A stretch of DNA of 39,130 nt from Myxococcales bacterium (GTDB taxonomy: Bacteria > Myxococcota_A > Polyangia > Polyangiales > Houyiibacteriaceae), in contig JAOTXX010000040.1 of the NCBI GenBank assembly GCA_029862185.1, positions 1 through 39,130 of the forward strand, read 5' to 3'. A model generated the notes under the pieces. It saw only the letters and a list, made by a program, of their open reading frames with translations, did not search any database and was not told the DNA's origin. The translations under genes were made by a program, and so were the position numbers. Positions 25,996 to 38,913 of this stretch are shown here, piece after piece (position 1 is the first letter of the stretch; every line of letters starts with the position of its first letter).

Positions 25996-27402
25996 TCACG
26001 GGAATATCCCGTCGAGCGCGTATGCGCTCGCAACCGACTCGATTGCGGTGAGGTAAGCAGCGGTCCGGAGATCGGGCAGCGATCGGCGCTTCCAAAGCTC
26101 ACGAATTTTCTCGTAAGAAATCGCCATCGTGTTTTCCAGCGCCGTGCGAACGAAGTCGATCTCATTGGGCGCCTGGAGCAAAAGCGCGGCGTCCTCCGGA
26201 GGGAGGCTCTTCCCGCTCAGGCGACTGACCGCATCGAGAATCCGGTTGTTAGATATCTGTTGATAGCGGCGGGTCATGCGCTCGAAGCTCACGTGCGAGA
26301 GGTTCTTGATCCACTCGAAGTACGACACCACGACTCCGCCCGCGTTCGCGTAAATATCCGGGAGCACCACGGTCCCAGCTTCGCGAAGAATCGCATCTGC
26401 CTGGGGATCGACCGGGCCGTTCGCGGCCTCGACGATCACTTTCGCCAGAAGCTTTGGCGCGTTCTCGGCGGTGATTTGATGCTCGAGTGCCGATGGAATC
26501 AGGACGTCGCAAGGCTGTTCCAGGATCGCGTCCGGATTGGCCAGGTAGCGGGCGTCTGGGAAACCGCGAAGGGAGCCGGTGTCGGCGCGGTGGAGGAGAA
26601 CGGCTTCGACGTCGAGTCCACCTTCATCGTAGAGCGCGCCGTCGCTCACCGAGACACCCACGATGACGGCATCCCGCTCGATCGCTGCGAGCGCGGCGTG
26701 AAGCCCGACTTTGCCTAGCCCTGGCACGATGATGCGCTTTCCCGCCAACCCGGTTTCCAAGCCGAGTGGCTTCACGTCTTCTTCTTCGGACAAGAGGTGC
26801 TCGAGCGCGATGATCGCGCCAAGTCCGGTCGCCTCTCGACGCCCAGACACGCCGTGCACACTCGTTGCTTTGCCTGTGACACAGGCCAACGCGTTCAAGG
26901 TGTCCGGCCCTAGAATCTTGTAGGTGTCGTAGATCCAGCCCATTTCCCGTTCACCGGTACCGACATCGGGCGCCGGAACGTCGACGTCGGGGCCGATGAA
27001 CCGTTTGCGAATGAGCTCGCTGGTGTAGCGTCGCGTCACGCGTTCCAAAAACGCCGCGGATTCGATTCGCGGATCGACGCACACGCCACCTTTGGCCCCT
27101 CCGAACGGTACGTCGACGACCGCGCACTTGTAGGTCATGAGCGCAGAGAGGGCCATGACCTCACTCTGAGCGACATCGAGCGAATAGCGAATCCCGCCCT
27201 TGGTCGGGAGCCGGTGATGACTGTGCTCTGCTCGGTAGCCTTCGATCACGACGATTGTGCCGTCGTCCCGCCGCACGGGAAACCGCAACCGGAAGACGGC
27301 GTTGCAAGCTCGGATTTGGCCGAGGATGTCCGGGGAGACTTCCGTGTGGCGGCAAGCCGCATCGAAGTATTGGTTCACGTCGTCGAAGAAGTTGGAGGGC
27401 AT
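25996..27402 (-). CDS. gdhA: Glutamate dehydrogenase (Glu/Leu/Phe/Val dehydrogenase family)
   Basis: The enzyme interconverts glutamate and 2-oxoglutarate plus ammonia. The 468-aa protein has the family lysines at 68 (PTKGGIRY), 92 (MTYKCA) and 104 (GGAKGG). Their spacing of 24 and 12 equals that of Lys89, Lys113 and Lys125 in the clostridial enzyme. The catalytic Asp is about residue 146 (PAPDVGTGE). The Rossmann domain has GKRIIVPGLGKVGLHAA near 226-243, and NAGGVVVSYFEWIKN closes the active site. Coenzyme preference cannot be read with certainty. The start at 27402 lacks a clear ribosome site. It diverges from the next hydrolase gene across the hexamer repeat. Confidence 0.93.
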   Translation of the reverse strand: MPSNFFDDVNQYFDAACRHTEVSPDILGQIRACNAVFRLRFPVRRDDGTIVVIEGYRAEHSHHRLPTKGGIRYSLDVAQSEVMALSALMTYKCAVVDVPFGGAKGGVCVDPRIESAAFLERVTRRYTSELIRKRFIGPDVDVPAPDVGTGEREMGWIYDTYKILGPDTLNALACVTGKATSVHGVSGRREATGLGAIIALEHLLSEEEDVKPLGLETGLAGKRIIVPGLGKVGLHAALAAIERDAVIVGVSVSDGALYDEGGLDVEAVLLHRADTGSLRGFPDARYLANPDAILEQPCDVLIPSALEHQITAENAPKLLAKVIVEAANGPVDPQADAILREAGTVVLPDIYANAGGVVVSYFEWIKNLSHVSFERMTRRYQQISNNRILDAVSRLSGKSLPPEDAALLLQAPNEIDFVRTALENTMAISYEKIRELWKRRSLPDLRTAAYLTAIESVASAYALDGIFP

Positions 27403-27440
27403 CGTGACGGTAGTTATAGGGCTAGTTGCGCGGGGAGGGC

Positions 27441-27506
27441 CAGTGCTAGTGTCAGTGTCAGTGTCAGTGTCAGTGCCAGTGCCAGTGCCAGTGCCAGTGC
27501 CAGTGC
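27441..27506. repeat. 11-unit hexanucleotide tandem repeat
   Basis: Eleven units of a 6-base repeat: CAGTGC, TAGTGT, three CAGTGT, then six CAGTGC, without interruption. It lies between the divergent starts of gdhA (27402) and the alpha/beta hydrolase (27529). It is a simple sequence repeat, not CRISPR, and could change length by slippage and so alter promoter spacing or the leader. Confidence 0.9.
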
Positions 27507-27528
27507 CCGCGTCAGTGGGGGTAGGGCG

Positions 27529-28380
27529 TTGAGCTCATCGTTTACGCAGACGGGGCCTCGGCTAGCTTACCGGACCTTTGGCCAGCAGGGGCCGCCCGTT
27601 CTCTTCATCATGGGGTTTGGGATGTCCGGCGCCGTTTGGGGGCCACAGGTGGACGAGCTTCGATCGGACCATCGCTGCTGCCATTACGATCACTTGGGCG
27701 TCGGGGAGAGCGATCGTGGGCCGTTTCTTCGAACCATTCCGGCGATGGCGGACGATGCCATTCGGATCATGGACGATCTTGATTGGGATCGGTCCCACGT
27801 CGTCGGCGTTTCGATGGGAGGCATGATCGCTCAAGAGATCGCGCTTCGCTCAGCGGACCGTTGCAGGAGCCTTACCCTGATCGCCACTCACGATGGCGCG
27901 CCGGTCGCCTCGCTTCCGACGTTCAAGGGGATGGGCCTTTTTCTCCAGGGGCTGTTCGGGGGCCGCAAGGCTCGGATGAAATCGCTTCCACGCTTGCTCT
28001 ATCCCGCGGAGTTCCTCGAGTCGATCGGCACCGAAGGGATGCGCGCGCATCTCAGCGTACGCTTGGACCGGCCTCCCGCGCTTCGAACCGTACTGGGCCA
28101 GCTTCATGCGGTTTGGCGCCACTCGACACGGTCGCGTCTCTCGCAGATCGAAGCACACACGCTTCTGGTGCGACCCGGCAAAGACATCTTGATTCGCCCC
28201 ACCCAGACCGACCGGCTCGCCGCGCGCATTCCCAACGCCCGCGTGCTGCGTTTCGATGACGCCGGGCACGGCGTCACCTTTCAGAAAGCAGCGGAGCTCA
28301 ATGCGGGCTTGCGAGAGCACTTCGCACGCCATGAATCCGCCGAACCAGTCTTCGAGCGGTCAGACCCGGCCCGTCTCTAG
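27529..28380 (+). CDS. Alpha/beta hydrolase fold protein
   Basis: A 283-aa alpha/beta hydrolase. The oxyanion region is VLFIMGFGMSGAVW, the nucleophile elbow GVSMGGMIAQ, and the acid/base residues are probably Asp in LVRPGKDILIRP and His in DDAGHGVTFQ. The core resembles esterase/lactonase-type single-domain hydrolases with a short cap (about 130-180). The start is taken as TTG 27529, preceded by GGGGGTAGG; the frame upstream reads through the hexamer repeat and into the gdhA region and is not credible. The stop shares the palindromic CTAG (28377-28380) with the convergent porin fragment. Substrate unknown. Confidence 0.85.
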   Translation: MSSSFTQTGPRLAYRTFGQQGPPVLFIMGFGMSGAVWGPQVDELRSDHRCCHYDHLGVGESDRGPFLRTIPAMADDAIRIMDDLDWDRSHVVGVSMGGMIAQEIALRSADRCRSLTLIATHDGAPVASLPTFKGMGLFLQGLFGGRKARMKSLPRLLYPAEFLESIGTEGMRAHLSVRLDRPPALRTVLGQLHAVWRHSTRSRLSQIEAHTLLVRPGKDILIRPTQTDRLAARIPNARVLRFDDAGHGVTFQKAAELNAGLREHFARHESAEPVFERSDPARL

Positions 28381-32490: not shown

Positions 32491-33405
32491 TTATAGGCCG
32501 TTGAGTGCGTCGACCACTTCGAAGAGGTTCCCGATGTCGTAAAAGTCGACCGCGACGAAGTTCGGAAGGGCGTTGCGCTCTTCTTCGCACTGTCGGGCGC
32601 GGTCGATGAAGAGCGGATCGTAGTTGACCATCTCGGCGAGCTCAGGGTCGCCACCCACGGCAGTGGTCAGGAAATGGTTGAGGAGGAACAGCGGGTTGGC
32701 GGGGTCACCGCGATTGGGGTCGCAGTCGAAGTCCTCCGGGGCGGCAAAGGAAAAGTCGGTCTCCCCGGCATGGTCCCAGATGTTCATGAGCCAAGGATAC
32801 TCGGCCTCCTGTGGCAATGTCTCTTGAAAGACGACCAGGCGCGTGTTGGCGTCGATGAGCTCGCCGAGCATAGGCCATGGCGCGTCGACCTCATGCGCGT
32901 AGACCAAATCAATCAGCCCCGTCTCGTCGAACGCGCCGGCGGTTTGCGCGTGTGTGATGTAGTTCTCGAAGATGATCGAGACCACTTCGCCGGGGTTGGC
33001 GTCGAGGAAAGCTTTGATCTCTTCGAGACCATCGGCCAGCGGCTGCTTTCCCAAACCGCAGAGCACATGACACAGAAGCAGCTCACCGTTTTCGTCGTAC
33101 GTGTCGAGCATGAGCCCGCGAATGCCGTCGTCGAGCTGGCGCGTGATGCCAAAGCGCTGGTTGGGTATGCTCCAGCCCGCTTCGGCATTCGACATCGCGT
33201 TGTGGGTCATCGGGAACGCGACTTCGTCCAATCGTCGCTCGCAGAGCGCTTCATGGCCGTTGCACTTCGGCTCGAGCGCTCCGCCGTCCGGTTCCGTACC
33301 GCTGTCGGTGCCGGCGTCGGCGGCAGAGCTCGAGCTTTCACTGCTGCACGCGCTCGCGAGCAACGCGATGAGAACCAGCAGCCTTGTAATGCGCATCTCG
33401 ATCAC
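32491..33405 (-). CDS. PI-PLC X-domain-like phosphodiesterase, lipoprotein
   Basis: A 304-aa predicted lipoprotein: lipobox LLASAC (Cys20), a DAGTDSG-type linker (about 22-45) and a phosphatidylinositol phospholipase C X-like domain. The first catalytic His is His68 in FPMTHNAMSNAE, the second His113 in LLCHVLCGLG. RQLDDGIRGLMLDTY and EVVSIIFENY give the barrel strands with acidic residues. The bacterial PI-PLC branch acts without calcium on inositol lipids or GPI anchors, but many such secreted homologues have unknown substrates. The start is taken as GTG 33405, overlapping the stop of the upstream amidohydrolase gene (GTGA), with GGGGGAG just before it; ATG 33396 is possible. The coupling suggests a shared transcript. 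Confidence 0.88.
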   Translation of the reverse strand: MIEMRITRLLVLIALLASACSSESSSSAADAGTDSGTEPDGGALEPKCNGHEALCERRLDEVAFPMTHNAMSNAEAGWSIPNQRFGITRQLDDGIRGLMLDTYDENGELLLCHVLCGLGKQPLADGLEEIKAFLDANPGEVVSIIFENYITHAQTAGAFDETGLIDLVYAHEVDAPWPMLGELIDANTRLVVFQETLPQEAEYPWLMNIWDHAGETDFSFAAPEDFDCDPNRGDPANPLFLLNHFLTTAVGGDPELAEMVNYDPLFIDRARQCEEERNALPNFVAVDFYDIGNLFEVVDALNGL

Positions 33406-36034: not shown

Positions 36035-37213
36035 ATGGACTTGAGTTTCACCGACGAAGAAGAGGCATTTCGGCAGGAGGTCCGCGCCTGGATTCCGAAT
36101 GCGATGCCCAAAGACATGCTTGGAACCGCACGAGGGGCTGGGGACTTCACACCGGAGGACTCGGCCACCTGGCACAAGATTCTCTACGAGAAGGGTTGGG
36201 TTGCGCCCCACTGGCCTGCAGAAGTAGGCGGGCCCGGCTGGGATGCCGCGCGGCGTTTCATCTTCGCCGAGGAGATGGAGCTTGCCGGCGCCCCTCCGCT
36301 TTCGGTTTTTGGTTTGGGGATGGTAGGCCCGTTGATCATCAGCTACGGAACGGACGCCCAAAAGAAACGATTCCTTCCAAAGATCCTCAGCGCCGAGGAA
36401 TTCTGGTGCCAGGGTTACTCGGAGCCGGGCTCAGGAAGCGACCTCGCTTCGCTGCGGACCACTGCGGAAGACGCCGGCGATCATTTCATCGTGAACGGTC
36501 AAAAAACGTGGACCTCGCTCGCGCAGTACGCCGACTGGATTTTCTGCCTCGTGCGAACCGACCAGTCCGTGAAGAAGCAGGCCGGGATCACCTTTCTGCT
36601 GATCGATTTGAAGAGCCCTGGCGTCGAGGTGAAGCCGATGATGACGCTCGGACACACACCGGCATTTTGCGACACCTTCTTCGACAACGTGAAAGTTCCC
36701 AAAGAGAACGTGGTGGGCGCAATCAACCAGGGCTGGACGATGGCCAAGGCGTTGCTCGGCCACGAGCGGACACTTCTGGCGATGATCGGGCCGTCGCGAA
36801 ACGTCTTGCAGAAGTTGAAGCGGATTGCAGCCCACAAAACGGTCAACGGGCGTCCGATGCTCGAGGATCCGGTCTGGCGCGCTCGAATCGCGCGCCTCGA
36901 AATGCGATTTCGTGCGCACCTCATGGTGAGCTACCGGGCGCTTGCCGACCAGCAGAAGGGCAAGATGCCAGGCCCCGAGTCTTCGATTCTGAAGCTCGTC
37001 GGGACCAAGCTCATCCAAGAGCTCACGGAGCTCGCCATGGAGGTCATGGGGGAGAGCTCGCTGACTTGGTACAACGAAGGCGTTTGCCTCCCCGTGGAGG
37101 AATCGATCGGGCCCTACTTCTGCTACGAGCGCGCCGCTACGATCTACGGCGGCTCTAATGAGATTCAACGAAACGTCATCGCAAAGATGATCCTCCAGCT
37201 GCCGAGCAGCTGA
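36035..37213 (+). CDS. Acyl-CoA dehydrogenase (catalytic-type subunit)
   Basis: A 392-aa FAD-dependent acyl-CoA dehydrogenase. The N-terminal helical domain (about 1-120), the beta domain with CQGYSEPGSGSDLASL (125-140) and TWTSLAQYADWIF, and the C-terminal helical domain are all present. The usual medium-chain catalytic Glu near the C terminus is Gly here (ATIYGGSNEIQR). A Glu at residue 244 (LLGHERTLLAM) matches the alternative catalytic position used by isovaleryl-CoA dehydrogenase (Glu254) and by mycobacterial steroid side-chain FadEs. It should therefore be active. The ATG at 36035 follows AAGG; ATG 36011 is possible. A second dehydrogenase gene follows after 31 bases. Confidence 0.9.
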   Translation: MDLSFTDEEEAFRQEVRAWIPNAMPKDMLGTARGAGDFTPEDSATWHKILYEKGWVAPHWPAEVGGPGWDAARRFIFAEEMELAGAPPLSVFGLGMVGPLIISYGTDAQKKRFLPKILSAEEFWCQGYSEPGSGSDLASLRTTAEDAGDHFIVNGQKTWTSLAQYADWIFCLVRTDQSVKKQAGITFLLIDLKSPGVEVKPMMTLGHTPAFCDTFFDNVKVPKENVVGAINQGWTMAKALLGHERTLLAMIGPSRNVLQKLKRIAAHKTVNGRPMLEDPVWRARIARLEMRFRAHLMVSYRALADQQKGKMPGPESSILKLVGTKLIQELTELAMEVMGESSLTWYNEGVCLPVEESIGPYFCYERAATIYGGSNEIQRNVIAKMILQLPSS

Positions 37214-37244
37214 CCGGCGAAGCCAACTCAGGAGTGATTCCAAC

Positions 37245-38381
37245 ATGGACTTTGAGCTCGACCAAGATCAACAGATGCTCGCCAAGACGGTGGCGGACTT
37301 TGCCAAGAACGAGTCGCCCGTCGCGAGGTTCCGCGCGCTGCGCGACGATGACATCGGCTACGACCCTGCGATGTGGCAGAAGATGGGAGAGCTCGGCTGG
37401 CTTGGCATCCCCTTTTCCGAATCGGTTGGCGGCTTTGGCGGCGGGTTCGTCGAGTGCGCGATCGTGTTGGAGCACCTGGCCACCACGCTCGTGCCCGAGC
37501 CCTATCTGGCGTCGGTCGTCCTCGGCGGGATGACCCTCGCCCGTGCCGGAAACGCTGCCCAGCACGATGCCCTTCTCACCCCGATGATCGAAGGCGAGAC
37601 GAGCTTGGCGCTGGCCTACTCGGAGGCGCAGAGCCGCTACGACGTCAGCTCGGTGGAGACGATGGCCACGCCGGATGGCGCCGGCTATCGGATTTCGGGG
37701 GAAAAGGTCTGGGTCCTCAATGGGCACCGCGCCGACCAGCTTGTCGTGTCCGCCAAAGCGCCCGGCGGCGTGACGCTGTTCGTCGTGCCGCGGGACGCAG
37801 CGGGCGTGAGTGTGAGGGTCGCAAAGACGATCGACGGCAAGAAAGCAGGGTTCATCCGATTCGAAGGCGTTGCTGTCGCCGAGGACGCACGGCTCGGCGA
37901 GGAAGGTGCGGGCACCGAAGTCCTCGATCGGACGATGGACTTCGCCGCGGCCGCGGCGGTTGCAGAGGGCGTCGGGATCGCCAGCACGATGCTTCAGATG
38001 ACGGTGGACTACCTCGGCACGCGCGAGCAGTTCGGCGTCAAGATCGGCTCGTTCCAAGCCCTGCGACACCGCGCGGTCGACATGTACGCCGAAACCGAGC
38101 TCCTTCGTTCGATTTCGATGGCGGCGATGGTTCGAGCCGACGACGACGACGCAAGCGCTCGCCGCAGCGACATTTCTGCGGCGAAGTACCAACTCGCCAC
38201 CGGAGGGATTTGGGTTGCGCAGCAGTCGCTGCAGCTGCACGGCGGCATCGGCGTCACCGACGAGCACGACATCGGCCTCTACTTCAAGCGCATGTACGCC
38301 TTGAACGCGCTCTTCGGCGATCAAGAGCACCATGTCGCGCGCTTTGCGAGCGATCCGGCCTTCGCGGAAGCCGCCGTTTGA
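37245..38381 (+). CDS. Acyl-CoA dehydrogenase-like protein, probable non-catalytic partner
   Basis: A 378-aa acyl-CoA dehydrogenase homologue in the second position of the pair. The fold motifs are present, including LGWLGIPFSESVGG, LALAYSEAQSRYD and the C-terminal TREQFGVKIGSFQALRHR of the FAD-binding helix region. But no Glu is seen at either catalytic position: the helix site reads VLDRTMDFAAAAAVAEG and the C-terminal site ALNALFGDQEHH. In alpha2-beta2 dehydrogenases of steroid and cholesterol side-chain breakdown, one subunit is likewise catalytically silent but shares FAD. AGGAG lies 10 bases before the ATG. I infer that it pairs with the preceding protein. Confidence 0.9.
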   Translation: MDFELDQDQQMLAKTVADFAKNESPVARFRALRDDDIGYDPAMWQKMGELGWLGIPFSESVGGFGGGFVECAIVLEHLATTLVPEPYLASVVLGGMTLARAGNAAQHDALLTPMIEGETSLALAYSEAQSRYDVSSVETMATPDGAGYRISGEKVWVLNGHRADQLVVSAKAPGGVTLFVVPRDAAGVSVRVAKTIDGKKAGFIRFEGVAVAEDARLGEEGAGTEVLDRTMDFAAAAAVAEGVGIASTMLQMTVDYLGTREQFGVKIGSFQALRHRAVDMYAETELLRSISMAAMVRADDDDASARRSDISAAKYQLATGGIWVAQQSLQLHGGIGVTDEHDIGLYFKRMYALNALFGDQEHHVARFASDPAFAEAAV

Positions 38382-38421
38382 CGCGATGGCAATCGAAGCG
38401 CAGCCGCTCTAGACTGGCCTG

Positions 38422-38913
38422 ATGGCGGACATCGATTGGACCGACCTCGAGGCGATCAAACGGCTCAAGTATAGATACCAGCGTTGCCTCGATACGAAGC
38501 GATGGGATGAGCTGCGCGATTGCTTCACAGAGGATGCCAAAGCGGCCTACAGCGGCGGCAAATTCTCCTTCGACGGCCGTGACGCCATCATGAAGTTCCT
38601 CGAAGGCGCCATGGGGGCCGACAGCTTTCACTCGAGCCACGTGGTCAGCCAACCCGAGATCGACTTCATCGACGAACGGCACGCGACCGGTCGCTGGTGC
38701 CTCCGGGACTACGTCATCGACACCCGCTTCGATATGAGCATTCGAGGCGCTGCGTTTTACGACGACGCGTACCAGAAGGGCGACGACGGCGTCTGGCGAA
38801 TCTCCAAAACCGGCTACGAGCGCACCTACGAAGAGATGATTCCGCGCAAGTCGATCGAAGGCCTGACGCTGACCGAGAGCCGCTGGCAAGGGAAGGGCGG
38901 CTCCGAGAGCTGA
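38422..38913 (+). CDS. SnoaL/NTF2-like protein
   Basis: A 163-aa protein of the SnoaL_4/NTF2-like fold. It begins LEAIKRLKYRYQRCLDTKRWDEL, the typical first helices, followed by LRDCFTEDAKAAYSGG, DGRDAIMKFLEGAMG, SFHSSHVVSQPEID and a GRWCLRDYVIDTR strand. The pattern is that of polar-cavity enzymes such as bile-acid 7alpha-dehydratase (BaiE) or limonene-epoxide-hydrolase relatives, where Asp and His residues act on a ring or acyl substrate. It starts 40 bases after the second dehydrogenase on the same strand, which suggests work on the same acyl-CoA route. Reaction not assigned. Confidence 0.85.
   Translation: MADIDWTDLEAIKRLKYRYQRCLDTKRWDELRDCFTEDAKAAYSGGKFSFDGRDAIMKFLEGAMGADSFHSSHVVSQPEIDFIDERHATGRWCLRDYVIDTRFDMSIRGAAFYDDAYQKGDDGVWRISKTGYERTYEEMIPRKSIEGLTLTESRWQGKGGSES

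Follow-up and report, generated by a model that had tools for sequence, protein, structure and literature searches.

Here, we describe a pair of adjacent genes near the end of the window, a stretch of 39,130 nucleotides (contig JAOTXX010000040.1, assembly GCA_029862185.1) from a myxococcal bacterium of the family Houyiibacteriaceae. Its two open reading frames (ORFs), ORF1 and ORF2, very probably encode a single acyl-CoA dehydrogenase (ACAD) of the PimC/PimD type, an obligate alpha2-beta2 heteromer in which ORF1 is the alpha and ORF2 the beta subunit. This assignment is based on the split of the catalytic base and of the motifs for flavin adenine dinucleotide (FAD) between the two sequences, on conservation and adjacency, on phylogenetic trees and on predicted single-chain folds; assembly to a tetramer, two FAD per tetramer and enzymatic activity are what we infer from them. 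The window pair itself is ordinary and its architecture is already known.

Catalytic base and FAD half-sites

The features that carry the assignment are the following.

36035..37213, + strand: ORF1, putative alpha (PimC-like, large) subunit, catalytic and flavin-ring half, 392 aa, ATG at 36035
36419..36442, + strand: SEPGSGSD loop, residues 129-136 of ORF1, present in alpha and degenerate in beta by alignment
36509..36514, + strand: Trp159-Thr160 of QKTWTS in ORF1, presumed side motif of the flavin ring
36764..36766, + strand: codon of Glu244 in ORF1, predicted catalytic base by alignment, at the helix-G site of isovaleryl-CoA dehydrogenase (IVD) Glu254 and long-chain acyl-CoA dehydrogenase (LCAD) Glu291
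37148..37150, + strand: codon of Gly372 in ORF1, at the site of medium-chain acyl-CoA dehydrogenase (MCAD) Glu376 by alignment, no second base
37245..38381, + strand: ORF2, putative beta (PimD-like, small) subunit, non-catalytic half holding the ADP part of FAD, 378 aa
37944..37946, + strand: codon of Ala234 in ORF2, opposite IVD Glu254, base absent
38022..38033, + strand: REQF, residues 260-263 of ORF2, presumed FAD-holding motif
38232..38246, + strand: QLHGG, residues 330-334 of ORF2, presumed FAD-holding motif

Residue 244 of ORF1 is a Glu within LGHERTLLA, and its C-terminal site reads TIYGGSNEIQR with Gly372 where MCAD has Glu376. When ORF2 is aligned with human IVD (1ivh_A), Ala234 faces the Glu of the IVD segment LDLERLVL, which we take to be Glu254, and the C-terminal site is ALNALFGDQEHH with Phe357 in the MCAD Glu376 column. 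An earlier note on this DNA had described ORF1 as lacking the C-terminal Glu and having Glu244 at the IVD site, and ORF2 as having Glu at neither site. Both descriptions hold, the IVD alignment giving Ala234 and no Glu at the catalytic site of ORF2. The excerpt of PMC11153573 names Glu254 as the base of IVD and treats the base sites of IVD, LCAD and MCAD as equivalent.

Conservation was followed in 82 alphas (window, Roseomonas PimC and 80 genome_contigs loci) and 77 betas (window, Roseomonas PimD and 75 of these loci). The 80 loci are the best of at least 597 stretches, and thus a sample, and their phyla were taken from record titles. Glu244 is invariant among the alphas (82/82). At the helix-G base site the betas have Ala (41), Gly (35) or Val (1), and Glu occurs in none of the 77 at the Phe357 column and in three at the preceding column 356. 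Since every alpha carries Glu244 and no beta a Glu at the base site, the one-base pattern is more than chance.

As judged from its motifs, FAD binding is split between the two proteins, ORF1 having the predicted flavin-ring loops and ORF2 the motifs that would grip the ADP end from the neighbouring subunit. Trp159 is found in all 82 alphas and Thr160 in 79. REQF and QLHGG, both of which we assume to hold FAD, are retained in beta and lost in alpha; R260, Q262, F263 and G333 are present in 77/77 betas, Q330 in 76 and G334 in 75. In the alignment neither ORF1 nor ORF2 is an IVD-type enzyme, i.e. a single chain with the helix-G Glu and both FAD half-sites. In solved ChsE complexes alpha carries the Glu and the substrate site and binds the isoalloxazine, ADP-ribose being contacted by beta, as stated in the excerpt of PMC11153573, and the motif division of ORF1 and ORF2 agrees with these subunit roles.

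The same division recurs in the genome that contains the window (4.29 Mb, 169 contigs, listed as 100% complete). Counting its loci together with the window, 26 ACAD-like ORFs were found and 25 were aligned, the weak match L013_2959_4818 being omitted. Five alphas (window and contigs C38, C82, C107 and C75) have EPGxGSD-like loops and the helix-G Glu and are without RxxFG and QxxGGxG. The five betas all have RxxF, three of them with exact QxHGG and two with the near forms HVHGG and QVHGA, and their EPGxGSD loops are degenerate or missing. Most of the 15 other aligned ACADs retain both FAD half-sites. One genome of 4.3 Mb thus has five alpha-beta ACAD pairs (contigs C38, C75, C82, C107 and C129), the one on C38 with reversed gene order, beta before alpha. 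Because it has five such pairs, per-gene counts of ACADs would overstate its independent activities. The pattern may serve annotators as a test by which beta subunits are kept out of the tally of independent dehydrogenases.

It has also to be considered that ORF1 and ORF2 are two separate homomeric enzymes, neighbours by chance, with ORF2 inactive or using another residue such as the conserved Glu241. The ORF2 model folds like ordinary homomeric ACADs (Z of ~46), and at Glu241 (37965-37967) 71 of the 77 betas carry Glu and 5 carry Asp, with Val in Tcur3481. This residue is, however, situated 7 residues beyond the lost-base position of the same helix, where it perhaps closes the unused site of beta. 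The FAD half-sites are reciprocally lost in ORF1 and ORF2, and adjacency extends over two phyla: beta is adjacent to alpha in 75/80 genome_contigs loci, and alpha adjoins beta in 19 of the 20 loci fetched from the family of the window. We therefore regard chance neighbourhood as extremely improbable and retain the heteromer.

The best 80 loci comprise 76 from Proteobacteria (43-50% alpha identity) and 4 from Myxococcota (60-68%). The 20 family loci represent 19 genomes (G018 twice), several of them being short contigs, and the two sets overlap by two loci with identical DNA (L076 = L059, L075 = L065). Of the 33 family genomes, 30 have a match to ORF2 at E<=1e-60, which in some of them is just a paralogue at 37-43% identity. 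Adjacent pairs also occur on plasmid records of Roseomonas, Bradyrhizobium, Caballeronia and Croceicoccus, and alpha-like matches in 44 Rhodococcus records. The occurrence of such a pair outside Actinobacteria, on which the earlier note had remarked, is ordinary; the kind is already known and common in proteobacteria (PMC8399759 and PMC12543098, both in excerpt). Since Scd1AB of Pseudomonas is suggested to be a heterotetramer in the excerpt of PMC8399759, the heteromeric architecture is not confined to Actinobacteria. A literature search on Myxococcota, aimed at heteromeric ACADs or the breakdown of steroids, gave, judged by title, nothing on the subject among the matches listed.

Relationship to PimC/PimD and to steroid-type dehydrogenases

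The best NCBIfam family is PimC (TIGR03204, 394 bits) for ORF1 and PimD (TIGR03203, 322.7 bits) for ORF2. PimC and PimD, named in Rhodopseudomonas, annotated in Roseomonas and with a related pair in Ralstonia, are the large and small subunits of pimeloyl-CoA dehydrogenase. With them the window pair shares the best families, the gene order of Roseomonas, the way in which base and FAD motifs are divided, and the tree groups. Two trees were reconstructed, one of 51 rows and one of 50 rows including 14 other ACADs, drawing on 15 of the 80 genome_contigs loci; for the latter 10 rows (5 loci, both subunits) were removed and 9 other ACADs of the own genome added. Roseomonas PimCD stood for the named PimCD in both, R. 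palustris PimCD being absent. In the 50-row tree the alphas are set apart by one branch (support 100/99) and the betas by another (100/98), ORF1 belongs to a 12-row group with Roseomonas PimC (100/97) and ORF2 likewise to one with PimD (98/94); the 51-row tree gives the same groups. The window pair clusters with other Myxococcota, beside proteobacterial PimC/PimD.

Single-chain models were predicted with a mean local confidence (pLDDT) of 87.0 for ORF1 and 86.8 for ORF2. The four top PDB matches of the alpha model are Tcur3483 (6wy8_B and 6wy9_A), a chain of the Fic32-33 complex (8hk0_B) and ChsE4 (4x28_B), with Z of 39.1-37.3, and human LCAD follows behind them (Z 35.9). Tcur3483 gives Z 39.1 at 2.8 A over 376 aligned residues with 29% identity. 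Among the literature matches listed, none named Fic32 or Fic33. The alpha2-beta2 pattern put forward in the earlier note is thus well supported by complementary half-sites, conserved adjacency, the trees and the presence of the alphas of two known heteromeric ACADs, Tcur3483 and ChsE4, among the nearest structures of the alpha model.

Several known systems are comparable. ChsE4-ChsE5 (FadE26-FadE27, 4x28) and ChsE1-ChsE2 of M. tuberculosis are alpha2-beta2 enzymes with Glu solely in alpha (PMC11153573 and PMC8399759, in excerpt). The alpha fold of ChsE4 resembles that of ORF1, but ChsE4/ChsE5 form separate tree groups and ChsE4 has Gly where ORF1 has Tyr371; ChsE1-ChsE2 is likened to the window pair by description. 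Tcur3483-Tcur3481 (6wy8/6wy9), a bile-acid ACAD of Thermomonospora, provides the top structural match of alpha and the top PDB sequence match of beta, whereas Tcur3483 has Gly (changed in 6wy9) instead of Tyr and groups with ChsE. Scd1AB (Pseudomonas stutzeri Chol1), ScdC1/C2 (Comamonas) and the CasC fusion (Rhodococcus) are, according to the excerpt of PMC8399759, two-part ACADs or proposed as such, and are likened here by description. CasC has Glu in just one half, and Scd1AB and ScdC1/C2 are non-actinobacterial. In contrast with the window pair, their substrates are known or proposed to be steroids (same excerpt). Human IVD (1ivh) and LCAD share with ORF1 the helix-G base at the Glu244 position but are homotetramers with one FAD per subunit (PMC11153573, excerpt).

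From these likenesses the pair could be a dehydrogenase of steroid or bile-acid side chains of the ChsE4-ChsE5 or Scd kind, a link that the earlier note had drawn and that we now consider highly improbable. Searched against PDB sequences, ORF1 indeed matches ChsE4 best (4x28_A, 1.6e-62) and ORF2 Tcur3481 (3.4e-41). Chains A and B of 4x28 were taken as ChsE4 because chain A has Pro89 and Pro91, which the excerpt of PMC11153573 assigns to ChsE4. The PDB sequence matches listed for ORF1 and ORF2 contain no chain under the name PimC or PimD, so the best match may simply be the nearest solved relative. Pro87 in helix E of ORF1 occupies the site of ChsE4 Pro89, which is said to widen the pocket (PMC11153573, excerpt), but 73/82 alphas carry proline there and the residue was rejected as evidence for a steroid substrate. 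In both trees ORF1 and ORF2 fall apart from ChsE4/ChsE5 and Tcur3483/3481, and with PimC/PimD. Tyr371, just before Gly372, aligns with the Gly of Tcur3483 (G363) altered in 6wy9, whose role we take from titles alone (a paper and the 6wy9 entry); the column is Tyr in 58 and Phe in 24 of the 82 alphas. No steroid-degradation gene was recognised among the scanned window proteins, the remaining window ORFs being just listed and the contig ending nearby.

The same genome has a closer relative of ChsE4/ChsE5. The alpha on contig C107 matches ChsE4 with 461 bits, as compared to 215 bits for ORF1, and falls with ChsE4 and Tcur3483 in a separate tree group (100/100). Its pair (C107:41700-44002, equal to L003:8700-11002) is a second heteromeric pair that groups with ChsE4/ChsE5 and Tcur3483/3481; the 461 bits refer to 4x28_A, 6wy8_A gives 237, and the flavin loop is Gly-Gly-Gly. 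A DUF4442 gene follows it and an enoyl-CoA hydratase gene lies ~3 kb upstream. In this myxococcal genome a steroid-type enzyme is more plausibly sought in the C107 pair than in the window pair.

Some observations weigh against a PimC/PimD-type heteromer. Both ORFs score under the NCBIfam equivalog cut-offs (623.85 for PimC and 652.7 for PimD); the annotated Roseomonas pimC and pimD likewise miss them (598 and 492 bits), so that these cut-offs are strict. The alpha identity of 43-50% to proteobacterial loci and the neighbourhood also set the window pair apart from PimC/PimD. The gene row of Roseomonas mucosa is 3-hydroxyacyl-CoA dehydrogenase, pimA, thiolase, pimC, pimD, and the pim operon presumably comprises pimA, pimB and pimF as well; PimF, PimA and PimB are labels given here to the Roseomonas query genes. 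With homologues counted at tblastn E<=1e-8, >100 aligned residues and >60 bits, the window, whose contig stops 749 bases past ORF2, gave no homologue of PimA, PimB or PimF. Nor did 18 of the 20 family stretches, the homologues of the two exceptions lying ~8 and ~11 kb off the pair. In five of the 80 genome_contigs loci beta was not found nearby (same strand, <=1.9 kb centre to centre, some of the five being near contig ends), and in the family locus L053 (G019) an 83% identical beta gene stands without an adjacent alpha. Among the five pairs of the own genome, that of C75 departs from the rule seen in the other four: its beta aligns a Glu with the helix-G base site, which may be an alignment effect. 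This beta (L004:8510-9592) is short, and its best match in NCBIfam, under the cut-off, is to IpdE2. Finally, the beta model is about equally like many ACADs (Z 43-46), including Tcur3481 (44.3) and ChsE5 (43.7). Because the fold search does not set it apart from ordinary ACADs, it is sequence and tree that carry the beta assignment.

Proposed mechanism and candidate substrates

In a PimC/PimD-type heteromer each alpha-beta dimer would form one composite active site. Alpha would hold the isoalloxazine ring by the SEPGSGSD and WT motifs and bind the acyl-CoA; its Glu244 would remove the alpha-proton, with hydride transfer to FAD N5. Beta would clamp the ADP end of FAD in trans via R260/Q262/F263 and QLHGG, and its own would-be site would be dead because it has no catalytic base. 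Electrons of ACADs pass on to electron-transferring flavoprotein.

The substrate is uncertain. If PimCD is taken as the model, it would be a dicarboxylyl-CoA; an acyl-CoA with a branched or long chain is the other candidate, and steroid acyl-CoAs are the least likely. In the excerpt of PMC12543098 both members of a PimCD-like pair of Ralstonia lose fitness on C8-C12 diacids (shared average defects, -4.7 to -6.0), and a heterotetramer is suggested as possible. The one-base pattern together with the beta FAD motifs, present in 75 proteobacterial and myxococcal pairs as well as in the window and in Roseomonas PimCD, gives sequence support to this suggestion, i.e. that PimCD-like enzymes are maybe heterotetramers. 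Counted at the tblastn thresholds given above, homologues of PimF, PimA and PimB occur in 32, 19 and 16 of the 80 genome_contigs loci, and in none of their 4 Myxococcota loci. A search for a PimA-like ligase elsewhere in the own genome gave a best match of 37% identity, which is uninformative because AMP ligases are numerous.

The earlier note had also used the SnoaL-like neighbour of the pair as an argument on the substrate. Homologues of SnoaL, of the amidohydrolase and of TauE are found near the pair in 0/80 genome_contigs loci. Within the family, 10 of the 33 genomes have a SnoaL homologue, and all ten belong to one genus. Among the 20 family stretches it is present in 5, a lower bound because several family loci are short contigs; in three of these five, ~2.8-2.9 kb and two genes on the opposite strand separate it from the pair. 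SnoaL was therefore dropped as a substrate clue.

Branched and long acyl-CoAs are considered because one genome of the same genus, G021, has the pair beside a multifunctional enzyme type 2 (MFE-2) fused to sterol carrier protein 2 (SCP2) and a thiolase. Its row (L056:4104-11433) consists, on one strand, of alpha, beta, SnoaL, MFE-2/SCP2, an SCPx-like thiolase and TetR, the MFE-2 having SCP2 and alkyl-sulfatase C-terminal domains, and is a full beta-oxidation set. It is possible, though unlikely, that the same heteromer acts in a myxococcal branch on long or 2-methyl-branched hydrophobic acyl-CoAs, together with the SCP2-fused MFE-2 and the SCPx-like thiolase. This would fit the helix-E proline of ORF1, the position of SnoaL immediately after beta in G015 and G016, and its position just ahead of a partial MFE-2 match in G020. 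Yet that stretch of G020 (L170) is without such a pair, as are the MFE-2/thiolase stretches fetched from five other genomes of the genus (L171-L175). In the window genome the G021 thiolase is unmatched at E<=1e-60 and the G021 MFE-2 unmatched among the 28 of 66 first-look candidates scored. The SCP2/MFE-2 link was kept as no more than a rival on these grounds, and the PimC/PimD-type heteromer with either class of substrate is preferred.

We consider it quite unlikely that the myxococcal branch is a heteromer for branched or sterol-like side chains, of PimCD-type ancestry and independent of the ChsE line, which partners SCP2-fused MFE-2, SCPx-like thiolase and SnoaL as in G021. If true, it would be a bacterial counterpart to the oxidation of branched chains in peroxisomes.

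Locus layout and minor observations

Two further features belong to the immediate surroundings of the pair.

37230..37234, + strand: AGGAG, ribosome-binding-like site in the gap between ORF1 and ORF2, read from the sequence
38422..38913, + strand: SnoaL-like ORF (Pfam SnoaL_4), 163 aa, same-strand neighbour, restricted to one genus within the family, at most a possible part of the enzyme

ORF1 and ORF2 are encoded on the same strand with an intergenic gap of 31 bases, and each contains all three ACAD Pfam domains. The SnoaL-like ORF follows ORF2 after 40 bases, and the contig ends at 39130. Upstream of the pair, on the opposite strand, Pfam recognises a TauE/SafE-like permease and an Amidohydro_3 protein. 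Farther off in the window an alpha/beta-hydrolase ORF (27214-28380) has an N-terminal tract of Ala-Ser/Val-Ser repeats, and a similar tract is found in a related ORF of L054. A lipoprotein-like ORF (32491-33405), without Pfam match at 0.001, resembles by eye what we take to be the X domain of phosphatidylinositol-specific phospholipase C (PI-PLC).

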